The notes under the pieces were generated by a model that worked only from the letters and a program-made list of their open reading frames with translations, did no database searches and was not told where the DNA came from. Shown here one piece after another: positions 178 to 63,112 of a DNA stretch of 64,000 nt. Made by a program: the position numbers and the translations under genes. This DNA is from Sorex araneus (Eukaryota; Chordata; Mammalia; Eulipotyphla; Soricidae). Position 1 is the stretch's first letter. Every line of letters begins with the position of its first letter. The DNA lies in NCBI RefSeq assembly GCF_027595985.1, contig NC_073306.1, positions 96,422,926-96,486,925 of the forward strand, read 5' to 3'.

Positions 178-191
178 ATTAATATTACTTG
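178..191. repeat. Left target-site duplication of the RTE element
   Basis: ATTAATATTACTTG here is repeated exactly at 4126-4139. The two copies bracket the whole RTE insertion, so the inverted and direct parts arrived in one event. The last two bases (TG) also fit the element sequence, so the boundary is ambiguous by 2 bp. Confidence 0.9.
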
Positions 192-957
192 ATGTGATCG
201 ATGTCTTCTCGTTTCAGTCAGACCAATGACATCGTACTTGATCTTCTGCACTTGCACCATCAGGTCCTCGATGGATGCTTCCGATGCCAGCGTACTTGTG
301 TTGAAAGTTATTTTAGTCTTTCTTCCTTTTGGCAATCTAGTTCGTCCCTGAGATTTTTCAGCCTCTCCTTGCTCATCTTTCTTAACAGTGCCGTATTGGG
401 GGCTCTTTTGGTGTCAGGTGAATGAGGCCCATTGTTGTTACTGTTTTTGGCATATCGAATACACCACGGGTAGCTTGCCAGGCTCTGCCATGCGGGTGGG
501 GTACTCTCGGTAGCTTGCCGGGCTCTCCGAGAGGAATGGAAGCTTTTAGGGCGGCCTCCAGTCGCCCTTAGAAGTGTTCCCATAGTTCACACCATATTTG
601 AACCCAATCAAATATGGTACAGGAATTATGGAAAATGGGTATTAAGTGTCTTATGGTGTGTTCTGGAAAGTAGCCTGGAGTGTGGCGGTGGCTGGGTAGT
701 AGAAGTAGTGGGGGTCGGCCAGTGAGGTATTTATCTGGCTTGGGTAGAGCGGGGCATCTGGGTTTGACCCCCTCCCTAAGGTGCCAGAGATTGGAGGAGG
801 CAGACAGAGGATCTTGTTTCCGGGTCTCGTTGATCCTAGAGTCCAAGGTTGCAAAGTTCTGCTTACCTGTGGGGCTTCACTCATGGGTAAGGTTCAGCCC
901 AAGTGTCTGAAGAGTGGCCTGGAGCATCGTGGTGGGTGGGTAGTGGAGATCACATCA
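192..957 (-). pseudogene. Inverted RTE 5' leader and N-terminal endonuclease
   Basis: On the - strand this reads 5' leader (from about 957 down to 336), then an ORF start resembling PKGRK (about 335). The APE endonuclease N-terminus follows, with the motif VIGLTETRR near 210-240; its E is the expected metal-binding glutamate. The usual initiator is TTG here, so the start codon is degraded. The segment stops at TETRRHRSH, exactly where the direct part resumes with HAVFDTG at 948-960. Both ends share GATCACATCA (reverse complement at 190-199, direct at 948-957). Confidence 0.9.
430..534 (-). repeat. RTE leader segment homologous to a SINE body
   Basis: Read on the - strand this starts CTCTCGGAGAGCCCGGCAAG and runs to ATATGCCAAAAACAGTAACA. 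The same ~100-bp sequence forms the middle of the RTE-tailed SINEs at 15943, 16307, 20066 and 29472. No tRNA head or SINE tail flanks it here, so it looks like part of the RTE leader rather than a nested SINE. A partial SINE insertion in an ancestral RTE remains possible. Confidence 0.8.
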
Positions 958-1600
958 TGCCGTTTTTGACACTGGAAAAGAATTGTTCCTCGGAACATGC
1001 AACAACAGAGGCATCAGTGGTGTTGGTGTCCTTTTCAACATGAACTTGGCCATGAGCATTGATTCATTTGAATGCCTAATCTGAATCGGACGATTATTCT
1101 TGAATAGATGTGGCTCACTGTGGCAGTTTCTATCTTTGTTGTCTATGCACCAACATCCAACTACGATGAAGAAGAAATTGAGAAGTTCTACATGGAACTG
1201 GAGAGGTTCTATAAAGAATACCACACCTTCTACAAGATCATTTTTGGTGATTTTAATGCCAAGATAGGACCGAGAAGGTCGCCCTAAGAACTCCACATTG
1301 GGACCCATGGCCTAGAATGGAACGATCAGGGTGAGAGACTGTCTGAATTCATCATGTCGACCAAGACCATCCATGATAACTCACAGTTCCAGAAGTCCAA
1401 ATCTAAATGCTGGACATGGGAGTCTCCAATGGGCAGTTACACAATGAAATCGACCACATCATATTCAATCAAAGGTTTTGCCTGACCGATGTCGCTGTTA
1501 TCCCAAAATTCCAAACAGGATTGGACCACAGTCTCCTTCATGCAAAATTCTACTTCACAGAGCTGGGAGAAAGGTCTGCAAAGTTTAAGTTTAAGAAGGA
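958..1600 (+). pseudogene. RTE endonuclease domain, C-terminal part (disrupted)
   Basis: Direct continuation of the inverted segment. Conceptual reading gives GKELFLGTCNNRG near 972-1010, then GDFNAKIG at about 1246-1270 (the APE GDFN motif). EIDHIIFN follows at about 1447-1470, and LDHSLLHAKF at about 1522-1550 (the DH motif). The frame shifts repeatedly between 1070 and 1400. The order and motifs are those of an RTE APE endonuclease; no functional protein is possible. Confidence 0.88.
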
Positions 1601-3331
1601 AACTCCCAGAATGACCACTAACTGGGAGCTCTTTGGCACTATTGCGGCAATGTGGGAAGATGCCGTCCTTGACAACATCGACAAGGAATATGGTCGACTG
1701 GTTCAGCACCTCCATGACTGCTCGAAGAATGCTAAGAGTGAGAAAGCCACAAACAGACGCCTGTCTTTGGAAACTCGAGCTTATTTGTCAACGTGGTTTG
1801 GTGTGAGCCTCAGGCAACCACAAGCTAACGTCCGAGCTCGCAAAGCTGTGCTGAGAAGCGATAAAGGAAGATCTTAAAGAGAGAAGAGCAGTAATGTTGG
1901 CCGTTGTGGCAGAAGCTGGGAAAAGTATTCGCAATGCTCGCCTGTCCTTTGCCAACTACAAGACCAAGATGACTGCCCTCCGACGTCCTGATGAATCTAA
2001 CACATCTTCCAGAAAGGCAATGGAGAGGATTATTCACGACTTCTACTCGGATCTCTTTGACAGCCATGTCCACCTGCCCACATACCAAATTCCGCAGGAT
2101 GGATATGTCATTCCCAATGTCCTCCCTTCCGAAATCCGACATGCCATTTTGTCGGTAAAGATGCATACAGCACCTGGTCCAGACAAGGTCAGACCCGAAC
2201 ACCTGAAGAATCTGCCTCCAGTAGTCATCAGTACACTGACTCAACTCTTCACACGCCACCTGTCTGAATGCAAGGTTCCATTTCAATGGAAAACCAGCAG
2301 GTCCGTTCTGTTGTACAAGAAGGGAGATATCCACAACATCGGCAACTATCGCCCAATCTGCCTGCTGTCTGTCGTCTACAAGTTGTTCACTCGTGTCATT
2401 CTGAATAGAATAGGAAGAACACTAGATGATGGACAACTATACGAGCAAGCAAGGTTCCGAAGGGGATTCAGCATGATCAACCATATCCACACAGTGACCA
2501 AATTCATTGAAGTTTCGCAAGAGTTCAAGATGCCGCTCTGTCTAACGTTCATCAACTTAGAGAAGGCCTTCGATTCTGTTGAGACTGAAGCGGTCATCGA
2601 AGCCCTAGCCAAACAGGGCGTTCAAACTCAGTACATTAAGATCCTCCGCCAGGAAGATTCACCACCAGGATCTCATTCTACAAGGAAGTGATCATTGACA
2701 TAAAGAGAGGAGTTCGGCAGGGCAATACCATTTCACTAAAACTCTTCAGTACCACCCTCAAGAACATCATGTGATGGCTGGAATGGGAAGGAATGGGAGT
2801 GAAGATAGATGGTCGTCAACTATACCACTTCTGCTTTACTGATGACATCATTCTCATAACACCAAACATTAGCCAAGCGGCACAAATGCTGGCCGACTTC
2901 GACCATGAGTGTGGAAAGGTCAGCTGCAGCTGAACCTCAACAAGACGATGCTCAGGAAAAATGAACTAGTCCCTGACGCTCCATTTGCTGTCAATGGAAT
3001 GAGCATCTCCGAATGCAGCAGCTATGTGTACCTGGGTCGAGAACTCAACATGCAGAACGACTTGGCTCCAGAGCTGTGCAGGAGGAAGAGAGCAACGTGG
3101 AACACCTTCAAGAGCATCAAAGAAGTGGTTAAGAGGACAAAGGACCTCTGACTCCAGGCACATCTTTTTGATTCCACCGTTCTTCCTGCACTAATGTGCG
3201 CCTCAGAGATCTGGGCCCTACGTGAACAGGATGAGAACACTATTCGGGTATCCCAAAGAGGAATTGAAAGAGCTATGCTACGAGTATCAAGTGAGAGAAG
3301 GAATCCGGAGTTCCGACCTCGGTCGACGGTC
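1601..3331 (+). pseudogene. RTE reverse transcriptase domain (disrupted)
   Basis: One frame is open for 265 codons at 1894-2691. Visible RT blocks are APGPDKVRPEHL (about 2170), the NYRPICLLS block (about 2344), FINLEKAFDSV (about 2548, catalytic D block), the RQGNTIS block (about 2715) and FTDD at 2835-2846 (normally F/YADD). The thumb and C-terminal region with ECSSYVYLGREL is near 3010-3045. Stops and frameshifts occur near 1877-1893, 2691-2775 and 2909. The frame is cut at 3332 by the nested L1 tail. Confidence 0.92.
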
Positions 3332-3339
3332 AAGAATCA

Positions 3340-3609
3340 ATTTTTCGGTCAAAAATGGAATGTTATCATAGCAACGAGAGAGTTAATTGAAAATCATCTG
3401 CCACACAGGCAGAGGGGGAAAGGGAGGGAGGGTGTCTGGGGTTCTTGGTGGTGGATTATGTGCACTGGTGAAGGGATGGGTGTTTGATCATTGTATGACT
3501 GAGACTTGATCCTGAAAGCCCTGTAACTGTTCTCATGGTGTCTCAATTAAAAAGCATAAAAAAAATAAATAAAATAAATGTTTGGAAGAATTCACTAGTA
3601 AAAAAAAAA
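3340..3609 (+). mobile_element. L1 3' end nested in the RTE
   Basis: A 5'-truncated L1 tail: the G-rich 3' UTR (GCACTGGTGAAGGGATGGG near 3462) ends in TCAATTAAAAAG and poly(A). It is flanked by an 8-bp TSD, AAGAATCA (3332-3339 and 3610-3617), and it interrupts the RTE coding region. L1 activity therefore continued after the RTE arrived. Confidence 0.82.
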
Positions 3610-3622
3610 AAGAATCAGGGAC

Positions 3623-3804
3623 GTTGGGGCTGGAGTGATAGCATAGCGGGTAGGGTGTTTGCCTTGCACGCGGGCCAACCCGGGTTCGATTCCCAGCATC
3701 CTATATGGTCCCCTGAGCACAGCCAGGTGTAATTCCTGAGTGCAAAGCCAGGAGTAACCTCTGTGCATCGCCAGGTGTGACCCACAAAAGCAGAAAAAAA
3801 AAAA
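3623..3804 (+). mobile_element. SOR-type SINE nested in the RTE
   Basis: tRNA-derived SINE with A box (TAGCATAGCGGG), B box (GGTTCGATTCC), body and A-rich tail. TSD CAGGGAC occurs at 3616-3622 and 3805-3811. It inserted after the L1 tail, because its left TSD overlaps the L1 right TSD. Confidence 0.92.
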
Positions 3805-3811
3805 CAGGGAC

Positions 3812-4125
3812 ACTGTCTCATTTGCCAAGGCATCAAAAATCAGATGGGCCAGACATATAATGCAATTCAGAGACAACTGCTGGACTAGAGCTGTTACCGA
3901 CTGGATTCCACAGGACATCAAAAGACCACGTGGCTGCTCACTAACGAGATGGTCAGACTTCTTCGTCAAAACCCTGAACGAACGATTTGAGGCTCTTCCT
4001 GTTCCTGGAGCGAGCAGATACATTGGGCTACACTAGCATGCGACAGGGACAAATGGAGACATTACTGGCTCCCACTCGAGCAAATTGAAGATCAGTGGGA
4101 AGACAAGTGAGACAAGTGACAAGTG
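3812..4125 (+). pseudogene. RTE C-terminal region and 3' end
   Basis: Resumes the RTE after the nested insertions. The reading gives KIRWARHIM-like and WTRAVTDWIPQDIKRPRG segments (about 3838-3935), then RWSDFFVKTL (about 3950). The last ~75 bp (TACTGGCTCCCACTCGAGCA onward) match the tails of the RTE-tailed SINEs, and the end is a short AAGTGAGACAAGTGACAAGT repeat. Confidence 0.9.
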
Positions 4126-4139
4126 ATTAATATTACTTG
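4126..4139. repeat. Right target-site duplication of the RTE element
   Basis: Exact copy of 178-191 (ATTAATATTACTTG), immediately after the RTE 3' terminal repeats. Confidence 0.9.
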
Positions 4140-4224: not shown

Positions 4225-4490
4225 TTTGGACTCATTCGGCCTAGAGCATGGTGGCAGTTGGGTTGTGGAGGTCGGCTGCCGGGGCTGGGTCCCTTGGGGC
4301 AGGGAGGGCACTCACCCCCCTCTGGGGCAGCCCGAGTGAAAACAGCCTGGTGCGGAGTCCTGTGGCATGGCTATGGGGGCCTCATGTTATGCTCCTTTCC
4401 AGGAGAAGCAACCATATGATCTCGCATGCACATCTTTATGATAAAAAATATAATGTTCTCTAGCCCTTTGAGCCATCCTCCTGCCCAAGA
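4225..4490. repeat. Unclassified dispersed repeat, copy 1
   Basis: A GC-rich stretch (CCTAGAGCATGGTGGCAGTT, CCCTTGGGGCAGGGAGGGC) that resembles 5321-5500 in the same orientation and weakly resembles the RTE leader at 669-706 and 917-950. The class is unknown; it may be an older LINE leader. Confidence 0.45.
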
Positions 4491-4984: not shown

Positions 4985-5320
4985 TACCCTTATTTTTATT
5001 TATTTTTTTATTAATGAATCACCGTGAGGGTACAGATACAGATTTATGTATTTTTGTGCTTATACACTGTTATAAACTGCTTGAGTACTCATTCCTCCAC
5101 CAGTGCCTGTTCTCCACTGATAACCCCAGCATCTCTCCCACCCCCCCATGCATCCCCCCCCCACACCCTGCCTTTTCTTCTCTCTCTCCTTTTGGGTGTT
5201 GTGGTTAGCAATGGAGATATTGGGTGGTCATCGTGTTCAGTCTATAGTCTGCTTTGAACTGTGTGCTACTCTTGGAGTATGAGTGGTGTGAGGTGTGAGA
5301 TGTCCAGGTATATGTTCACT
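4985..5320 (-). mobile_element. L1 3' UTR fragment, older subfamily
   Basis: The reverse-oriented L1 tail begins with a T-rich run and GAATCACCGTGAGGGTACAG. It continues through the CCACCAGTGCC-type block and TTTTGGGTGTTGTGGTTAGC. It is more diverged than the copies at 6071 and 31718. Confidence 0.75.
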
Positions 5321-5625
5321 CATGGGTGAGACTTGGCCTGAGCATGTGGAGAGCAGCTGTGAGCATGGCTACGGTTGTGTTCTGGAGTTTTTCGGCTGCT
5401 GGGGCCGATTCCCTTGGGGTGGGGCAGGGCAGGGCCTCACTTGCCCCCCTCTGGGGTACCCCAAATGAAATAGCCTGGCTTGGAGTCCAGCATGGCTTCT
5501 GGATCATGGTCATTAATACGATTATCAGGCACCAGCCAGAGGTGGCTTGTGGGTGTGACTGCCAAGTTGCCAGAAATAGGAGGACATGGGGGGAGGTCGC
5601 CCATTCCCAGTACCATTGAACCTGG
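5321..5625. repeat. Unclassified dispersed repeat, copy 2
   Basis: Shares CCCTTGGGGTGGGGCAGGGC-type and CCCCCCTCTGGGG motifs with 4225-4490. It begins TCACTCATGGGTGAG, like the RTE leader at 877-890 (TCACTCATGGGTAAG). It could be the upstream 3' part of the adjoining L1 or a separate family. Confidence 0.4.
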
Positions 5626-15942: not shown

Positions 15943-16190
15943 GGCAGAGCGATAGCACAGCGGTTGGGCATTCGCCTTTCACGCGGCCAACCCGAGATCG
16001 ATTCCTCCGCCCCTCTTGGAGAGCCCGGCAAGCTACTGAGAGTATCGAGCCCGCTCAGCAGAGCCTGGCAAGCTACCTGTGCGTATTAGATATGCCAAAA
16101 ACAGTAGCAATAAGTCTCTCAATAAAACTGAGATACGTTACTGGTGCCCGCTCGAACAAATCAATGAGCAACGTGATGACAGTGATAGTG
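15943..16190 (+). mobile_element. RTE-tailed SINE, full length
   Basis: TSD ATACTTTTATG at 15932-15942 and 16191-16201. Three parts are visible. A tRNA head contains GATAGCACAGCGG and a weakened B box. A body (about 16015-16115) is homologous to the RTE leader at 430-534. A tail (CTGGTGCCCGCTCGAACAAA to GACAGTGATAGTG) is homologous to the RTE 3' end at 4050-4125. There is no poly(A). Mobilisation by the RTE machinery is inferred from the shared 3' end. Confidence 0.88.
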
Positions 16191-16306
16191 ATACTTTTAT
16201 GATTTTTATGCTTAATTTTTTTTGTTTGTAATACCCAGGTTTGAACCAAGATCCTCAACCCTGGCTCTATATTTCATTTTAAAAATAATAAAAATTTGTT
16301 CTCACA

Positions 16307-16497
16307 TTATTCCTCTGCCCCTATCGGAGAGCCCGGCAAACTACCGAGAGTATCTCGCCCACAACGGCACAGCCTGGCAAGCTACCCGTGGCGTATTCGA
16401 TATGCCAAAAGCAGTATCAGCAAGTCTCATGATGGAGATGTTACTGGTGCCCGCTCGAGCAAATCAATGAGCAATGGGATGACAGTGATACAGTGAT
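16307..16497 (+). mobile_element. RTE-tailed SINE, 5'-truncated
   Basis: Contains the leader-derived body and the RTE-like tail (GCCCGCTCGAGCAAATCAAT) but no tRNA head. Short probable TSD ATTATT. It lies 110 bp from the previous copy. Confidence 0.85.
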
Positions 16498-19982: not shown

Positions 19983-20412
19983 ATATATATATATCATATA
20001 TACGATATATATAATATTATATATATCATATATATTATATATCATATATAATTATATATAACTGTCATTGTCACTGTCATCCCGTTGCTCATCAATTTGC
20101 TCGAGCGGGCACCTGTAAAGTCCATTGTGAGACTTTGTTGTTACTGGTTTTGGCATATCGAATACACCATGGGTAGCTAGCCAGGCTCTGCTGTGCAAGC
20201 TAGATACTCTCAGTAGCTTGCTTGGCTCTCCAAGACGGGCGGAGGAATCAAACTCGGGTCGGCTGTGTGCAAGGCCCTACCCATTATGCTATCACTCCAG
20301 CCTATATATAACTGTACATAATATATTGTATATGATATATCACATATATATGTGATGTAATTATATATTATATCATTATTATATAATTATATACAATTGT
20401 ATATAATTGTAT
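19983..20412. repeat. AT-rich dinucleotide tract split by a SINE
   Basis: Imperfect (AT)n with ATATCATATATA units at 19983-20065 and 20303-20412. The two halves are separated by the RTE-tailed SINE at 20066-20302. Likely hairpin-forming. Confidence 0.88.
20066..20302 (-). mobile_element. RTE-tailed SINE, full length, reverse
   Basis: Reverse copy. The RTE-like tail is at the left (CATCCCGTTGCTCATCAATT, TTGCTCGAGCGGGCACC), the leader-derived body in the middle and the tRNA head at the right (CTATCACTCCAGCC). TSD TATATATAACTGT at 20053-20065 and 20303-20315. Inserted into the AT tract. Confidence 0.88.
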
Positions 20413-28395: not shown

Positions 28396-29470
28396 GAATT
28401 TAATGAACGTAAAATGTTCAAACAAGTAAATGAAAATTTAGGGGAGATTATGGAAGCTAAAGTATACTTTTGTTTTTGCTCAGGGCCTTTTATTTTTCTC
28501 TATTACATAAGAGAAATTATCTGGTATTCTGAGCTTTCAAAGTTCTTTGGGTATCTCTTAATATCTCCCTTTTACCTAGTAAATTTATAGGCTAGAGTTT
28601 CCTTTATTCTATAATATTTTTTATATAAATGGTACCCAAATATTATTTGAATTAGTTGGATTTATTAATTCTTGCGAGATCTGCTGTAAACAGTGCCTTT
28701 TTTATTCTTGCCCTTCTCTGAACTCTGCTGCTCATAGGTTAGTAAAAAGACTGGTAAACCGTGTGTTATGTGTGATTTGTGTGGGATAAACTGTAAGGCA
28801 GTTATGGGCAAGTGCTTGGGAGGCTTGAAGAAGGGTAAATCTATCATGCAGTAGGAGAAGCATGTTTGGAAATAAGAGCGGGAGAAGTTGTGAAGTTCAG
28901 GATTTGAGAACATCACATCTCTAAGGTCTCACGGGTATGCACATACATACATTTGTATAGGTTAAAATATTATGTAATCTATTTGGCATATATACATATA
29001 TAGTCTTTCCCCTCCCTCTCATACTTTTTTTGGTTGCTGCTGTTGCAGTGACCAGGGGTTACAAACATGAATGATTGTAGTGTTCACATATTGGCCACAG
29101 TGCTCTTCGGGGCTGTACACTTACAGCTGTAGGACGTGGACACTTGCTTGCCAGGGGTTGCACTTTTAGTTGTGCTTATGCACATTCTGGTTGTAGTGTT
29201 TGTTGAAGGTTGCACACCCCTGACCAAGATGCATCGAGGCTGTGTGTTATTTGGCAGTATTGCGTTCCAAACATACATTGCAAGGACAGTTATTGGTGTT
29301 AGAGGATGGCCCCAGAAGCAAACTTGAGGCCTCACACTTTTTAGGCAGGTGCTTTTACCACTCCTGGGCCCTCATGAATAGCCTTTTTAATTTTTTCTAA
29401 TTGAATATATAAGGCATACTTTCTACCTCTGAGCGACATTCCCCAACACATACATTGTTTTTACATTTTA
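28396..29470. other. ST7L intron, mostly single copy
   Basis: No exon recognised. 29030-29370 has a GT/GC-richer stretch with old SINE-like words but no clear family. Confidence 0.4.
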
Positions 29471-29471
29471 T

Positions 29472-29690
29472 TTCACAGCGGGTAAGGTATTTGACTTGCA
29501 CTCAGCCGACCCTCTCGGAGAGCCCAGCAAGCTCCCGAGAGTATCTCACCTGCAAGGCAGAGCCTGGTAAGCTACCTGTGGCATATTCGATATGCTAAAA
29601 ACAGTAACAAGTCTCACAATGGAGATGTTACTATGCCCGTTCAAGCAAATCGGTGAACAACAGGATGACAGTGACAGTGCTACAGGGCTC
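29472..29690 (+). mobile_element. RTE-tailed SINE
   Basis: CACAGCGGGTAAGGTATTTG head remnant, the leader-derived body (CTCTCGGAGAGCCCAGCAAG to ATATTCGATATGC) and tail (GCCCGTTCAAGCAAATCGGT, GATGACAGTGACAGTG). More diverged than the copies at 15943 and 20066. Confidence 0.85.
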
Positions 29691-63000: not shown

Positions 63001-63112
63001 ATAGCACTGTAGCACTGTTGTCCCATTGTTCATCGATTTGCTGGAGCGGGCACCAGTAACGCCTCTATTGTGAGACTTGTTGTTACTGTTTTTGGCATAT
63101 CGAATACCTCTC
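63001..63112 (-). mobile_element. RTE-tailed SINE, 5'-truncated
   Basis: Reverse copy: the tail complement is GTCCCATTGTTCATCGATTT and TGCTGGAGCGGGCACC, then the 3' half of the leader-derived body (TTGTTACTGTTTTTGGCATA). The head is missing. Confidence 0.85.

Follow-up and report, generated by a model that had tools for sequence, protein, structure and literature searches.

Two groups of described elements are close precedents for the short interspersed elements (SINEs) analysed here. The AviRTE SINEs (ManaSINE1, GymnSINE and others) are described as having a two-part tail, one part taken from each UTR (5' and 3') of AviRTE, an RTE retrotransposon common to birds and nematodes (PMC4844689). 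In Table 1 of PMC3747384, Bov-tA combines a tRNA head with a Bov-B tail, and Bov-A2 combines the BovB 5' end with a Bov-B tail. The same table lists an RTE 5' end for MAR4, RTESINE1 and RTE1-N1_LA; these three and the Afro SINEs are non-autonomous elements with RTE tails, their hosts are marsupials and afrotherians, and the displayed part of that paper does not report their partner RTEs as acquired from parasites. Regarding shrews, an A-tailed SINE named Sor has been described (PMC8466645), and transfer of an RTE, RTE1_Sar, between a strongylid nematode and the common shrew has been reported (PMC6542046), with the shrew RTE adjoining H. polygyrus and N. brasiliensis in that report. The window, which is the whole 64-kb stretch of DNA analysed here, contains one RTE copy and five SINEs that very probably belong to a composite non-autonomous family, composed of the head of an existing SINE, about 100 bp of the leader of a strongylid-type RTE, and the RTE 3' end.

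A perfect target-site duplication of 14 bp encloses the RTE, which is organised as follows.

178..191, no strand: left target-site duplication of the RTE, ATTAATATTACTTG, identical to 4126-4139
192..953, minus strand: inverted 5' part of the RTE (leader and endonuclease N-terminus), placed by nematode residue matches and the duplication edge
430..534, minus strand: leader segment homologous to the SINE body, from blastn, consensus alignment and shuffles
954..4110, plus strand: sense part of the RTE, with a broken reading frame and nested insertions at about 3414-3800
4052..4110, plus strand: 3' end of the RTE, matching the SINE tail at 81.4% over 59 columns and also by codon reading
4108-4110, plus strand: RTE stop codon
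4126..4139, no strand: right target-site duplication of the RTE, the same 14 bp as 178-191

A reverse-transcriptase domain (PF00078, RVT_1) was identified in 1855-2652 (E 2e-11), and the endonuclease model gave a match below cut-off in one RTE fragment, while three other fragments matched nothing. The 898-residue read-through of the RTE found 204 proteins, the best of them 62-66% identical over 97-99% of the read-through. Among the best 120 of these 204, a strongylid nematode was named in all 111 rows with a legible organism, as judged by eye, and the genera among the matches listed include Ancylostoma, Necator, Haemonchus and Nippostrongylus. Because strongylid-type protein matches fit an RTE reported for a strongylid and the common shrew, the element is probably RTE1_Sar; by this match and the earlier note, the window probably comes from a shrew.

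The leader on the minus strand and the RTE body on the plus strand pose a puzzle, which is resolved by a 5' inversion, as the endonuclease N-terminus is also found on the minus strand, at 192-383, and continues on the plus strand from about 947-962. On the minus strand, about 317-180 codes for residues 2/4 to 40/47 of strongylid RTE proteins; the plus strand takes over with residues 41/44 onwards, from 947/956. The minus-strand reading begins at the duplication edge, and the inverted and sense parts join at about residue 40-44, inside the single 14-bp duplication. This RTE is a single insertion whose 5' part is inverted, so that the leader, running from 534 to 430 on the minus strand, precedes the endonuclease in the same orientation. 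Inversion of 5' ends by twin priming is a mechanism known from L1 work. Twin priming at insertion would have inverted the 5' end of this RTE copy, hence the position of the leader 430-534 on the minus strand. Two further elements are nested in the RTE: a repeat at 3414-3610, of which the window has at least 10 further copies (66-78% identity) and which may be an L1 3' end, and a tRNA-Ala-like A-tailed SINE at 3626-3800, from the family that gives 53 matches in the window when one copy is the query.

The five SINEs are distributed over both strands of the window. Flanking duplications of at least 11 bp are present in two of them (11 and 13 bp), one in simple sequence, and the other three are unclear in this respect.

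15943..16192, plus strand: complete SINE (whole head, body, tail), flanked by an 11-bp duplication (15932/16191)
16307..16497, plus strand: SINE truncated inside the head, body and tail complete; duplication of 6-7 bp at most, not clear
20065..20304, minus strand: SINE comprising head, body and tail; flanked by a 13-bp duplication (20053/20303) that lies in AT-rich repeats
29467..29690, plus strand: SINE without the B-box part of the head, with body and tail; no duplication of at least 6 bp in the scanned flanks
63003..63112, minus strand: 5'-truncated SINE that keeps the tail and the 3' part of the body; scanned flanks show no duplication of at least 6 bp

It had been claimed that the segment of about 100 bp in the RTE leader matches the body of SINEs at 15943, 16307, 20066, 29472 and 63001, and comparison of positions 400-560 with the whole window by blastn agrees with this. 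Matches were obtained at 29511-29610 (89%, E 3e-33), 16320-16423 (87.5%), 16012-16113 (85%), 20135-20235 (85%) and 63077-63107 (31/31 bp, E 6e-11). Four SINE bodies match the leader over 100-104 columns with 85-89% identity; the shorter fifth match, of 31 bp, reflects the 5' truncation of that SINE. When a majority consensus of the five copies is compared with the leader, 95 of 103 positions agree and the score is 174; none of 2000 dinucleotide shuffles was as good, their maximum being 35. Random stretches of the window reached the leader score in 5 of 2000 cases and the tail score in 15 of 2000; we infer that these stretches are SINEs themselves, four whole SINEs being in the sampled range.

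The other end of the RTE gives a second, shorter match. The RTE 3' end alone finds three of the five SINE tails by blastn (E 5e-9 to 3e-5), and the remaining two are below cut-off singly, but align with the family. Compared with the five-copy consensus, 48 of 58 ungapped positions are identical (81-83%), and the score of 71 exceeds the shuffle maximum of 35, again with 0 of 2000 dinucleotide shuffles as good. The match of the last 65 bp or so of the SINEs to the RTE 3' end, given as 4050-4125 in the earlier note and placed here at 4052-4110, is better than chance, and the 20-base example given for it is correct, with 17/20 identical by eye. Translated in the RTE frame, the SINE tail reads WRRYWCPLEQIDEQRDDSD, and this peptide is identical at 15 of 17 residues to the C-terminus of P0083 from N. 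brasiliensis, the best of 30 nematode C-termini picked by motif from the fetched proteins. This match scores 91; the highest of 2000 letter shuffles reached 37, and the two alternative frames gave 7 and 9. The window RTE copy is identical to the P0083 C-terminus at 12 of 18 residues. Derivation of the tail from the RTE 3' end stands, with one correction: by this 17-codon match the SINE tail reads mostly as the end of the RTE coding sequence and not as UTR. At the junction of leader and tail, the SINE consensus has GTCTC, which is absent there from both RTE ends and makes a small inverted repeat with the following GAGAC.

Nematode-type RTE proteins were examined for the leader as well. An upstream extension of more than 15 residues before the endonuclease start is present in 21 of the best 120 of the 204 proteins, and one of more than 25 residues in 28 of 121 further proteins (P0121-P0241). 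In the window, the match to the H. contortus protein P0018 spans the last seven body codons and the linker (E 1e-13). P0110, also from H. contortus, matches the last body codons and the linker (E 2e-7), the Necator protein P0009 the linker and the last body codons (E 6e-4), and P0099 the linker only (E 6e-10). Full-length coverage of the segment comes from P0133, a nematode-type RTE protein from a contig of 1106 bases, which matches 580-359 on the minus strand (E 4e-11) and, in another frame, 509-312 (E 2e-6). Elsewhere in the 64 kb it does best at two SINE bodies, 16049-16105 (E 0.002) and 16328-16408 (E 0.017).

The body was also aligned by itself, with frameshifts tolerated, as SINE consensus body and as RTE segment, using 60 shuffles each. 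P0133 scored 71 on the SINE consensus body (null maximum 40) and 70 on the RTE segment, with 0/60 shuffles as good in either. The Necator protein P0012 scored 39 on the SINE consensus body (0/60 shuffles as good) and 31 on the RTE segment (5/60), and P0109 was borderline, with 33 on both and 3/60 and 2/60 shuffles as good on SINE body and RTE segment, respectively. P0018 was not significant on the body alone (26/60 shuffles as good on the SINE body and 5/60 on the RTE segment), and the leader of P0109 used as query returned P0109 itself and one Necator protein. The check proposed in the earlier note, whether nematode RTEs carry the leader, thus has a positive answer at protein level (P0133, 0/60 shuffles), over the full length in one protein. 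On these alignments we regard the leader segment as having been present in a nematode-type RTE; P0133 is the source of the full-length match, and the proteins of named nematodes cover only the 3' part of the body. P0133 is identical to P0018 of H. contortus at 68 of 83 positions and to the window RTE copy at 56 of 81, and because it is nearer H. contortus than the window RTE, it is unlikely to be a stray host copy. With the nematode-type proteins there is no break in homology between the SINE body, the linker and the endonuclease. In a search for nematode or shrew DNA, two SINE patterns gave 0 matches each in viral contigs, and none of the pattern matches of an alignment was confirmed (160 in viral contigs, 106 in genome contigs).

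Some further features of the 5' part of the RTE were recorded. Within 430-534 there is a near-duplicate of GAGCCYGGCAAGCTACC, about 50 bp apart, to which the P0133 peptides RARQAT and EPGKLP, in two frames, correspond; since P0133 has matching peptides in two frames, this duplication may be old. The stretch 581-953 is inside the duplication-bounded insertion, yet has no match to P0133, and may contain another host repeat. Related repeat units are found at 662-703, 906-947 and 5315-5387, and likewise at 4244-4372 with 5361-5497; some lie within the RTE insertion, in its 5' part, and others downstream. A palindrome lies at 571-640 within the insertion. The leader was compared with Rfam for self-cleaving ribozymes and other described RNAs; every family stayed below its gathering score, with mir-1 scoring best, at this palindrome (23 against 45.6 bits). 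Folding of the leader and four SINE bodies gave z values from -0.6 to -2.9 and no shared structure, and folding of the RTE 3' end gave a z of 0.14.

The head is whole or nearly whole in two of the five SINEs (15943 and 20065) and partial in the copy at 29467. When one A-tailed SINE of the window was used as query, 53 matches were found in the window, three of them to SINE heads, with identities of 82% over 60 bp, 74% over 65 bp and 84% over 38 bp; the heads diverge from the A-tailed SINE just past the B box. Because the head is common to an abundant A-tailed SINE up to the B box, it was probably taken from this existing SINE rather than directly from a tRNA gene. The tRNA-like character of the head claimed earlier is supported in the sense of a tRNA-type head, and a direct tRNA gene source is improbable, the head being shared with the A-tailed SINE. 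ARAGORN called a tRNA in copies of the A-tailed SINE and none in the heads of the five RTE-tailed SINEs. The segment 48332-48404 received a tRNA-Glu call from ARAGORN, yet aligns with A-tailed SINE heads. Judging from its description, Sor (PMC8466645) is probably the A-tailed SINE of the window.

The composite origin is proposed on what the sequences show: which parts are homologous, how they are ordered and oriented, that a nematode-type element carries the leader (at protein level), and that the head is shared. The three-part build suggested by the earlier note, with a tRNA-type head, the RTE 5' leader and the RTE 3' end, agrees with the shuffles for leader and tail and with the shared head. 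A deletion or a template jump in RTE RNA would have joined the leader to the 3' end, the latter consisting of the last 17 or so RTE codons and a short 3' repeat, and a second jump would have joined this product to the SINE head. The composite SINE would be transcribed by pol III from the head, and the RTE reverse transcriptase would recognise its 3' end and insert the copies. The loss of the RTE middle, which had been claimed before, we only infer, and no headless copy of leader and tail was found among the SINE matches in the window.

The direction of the exchange has to be considered, since a host SINE body could have been caught in the leader of an RTE copy or lineage after its entry into the host, so that only the tail would be RTE-derived. 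An apparent conflict in divergence between leader and tail (about 3% versus 20%) had seemed to favour such a capture; on the consensus alignment it shrank to 8 differences in 103 positions for the leader and 10 in 58 for the tail, which leaves the leader nearer the SINE consensus but is not significant (p 0.075). If real, the greater closeness of the leader would need later exchange. Capture by the RTE is distinctly improbable, as P0133, which is nearer H. contortus than the window RTE, has the segment, and as homology is continuous from the body via the linker into the endonuclease. The direction from RTE to SINE is favoured because a nematode-type RTE carries the leader and the SINE tail corresponds in translation to the C-terminus of a strongylid RTE protein. 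Simple proximity, in which an older SINE fragment beside the RTE or a later nested insertion is no part of the RTE, would account for a match limited to the body, without head or tail; it is hardly credible for a segment that is inside the duplication-bounded insertion and whose nematode-type leader homology goes on 3' of it.

The place of the exchange is a separate matter. A derivative of leader and tail may have arisen in the strongylid donor and crossed to the shrew lineage with the RTE, leaving only the head to be added by the host. Head-independent derivatives are possible, since AviRTE SINEs with different heads are described as having one common two-part tail (PMC4844689). The SINE tail is also nearer N. 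brasiliensis (15/17) than the window RTE copy is (12/18), which decay of the RTE copy fits as well. The absence of a headless copy among the window matches argues against such a joint crossing, and we consider it unlikely; if true, the transfer included both a non-autonomous element and its helper. With the composite assembled from the RTE and a resident SINE as the preferred reading, DNA passed from a parasite to its host appears to have given rise to a new repeat family.

Compared with the described systems, the window SINEs resemble the AviRTE SINEs in having a head, here a putative promoter, followed by a tail from both RTE ends, and in a partner RTE common to nematodes and a vertebrate. 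They differ in that AviRTE, a different RTE, links filarial worms and birds (PMC4844689), whereas here strongylids and apparently a mammal host are involved, and in that their head probably comes from a SINE already present and their tail is mostly coding-derived. The analogy with Bov-A and Bov-tA drawn in the earlier note holds, with the AviRTE SINEs as an equally close precedent: the partner LINE of Bov-tA and Bov-A2 is itself horizontally transferred, although Bov-B is a different RTE lineage with a reptile link, and the likeness is one of description. Sor, as described, probably has the head in common with the window SINEs, but has an A-rich tail, a different body and no RTE parts. In the literature, the terms SINE, UTR, tRNA and non-autonomous do not occur in the main text of the RTE1_Sar report (PMC6542046), a second paper naming RTE1_Sar mentions it once, and the mammal rows displayed in Table 1 of PMC3747384 have no shrew entry. 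Among the matches listed, judged by title or start of abstract, no paper on an RTE-tailed shrew SINE was found. The family follows a known two-ended design, was not found in print, and may be catalogued in Repbase or Dfam.

The founding of a mammalian SINE family by a parasite-derived RTE would, if true, be the second case between nematodes and vertebrates, with AviRTE, of this two-ended design. Both designs retain the 5' leader in addition to the 3' end, which the reverse transcriptase presumably requires; this suggests a role of the leader in mobilisation. The SINE copies would then also be additional, independent markers with which to date the transfer and name the donor lineage.
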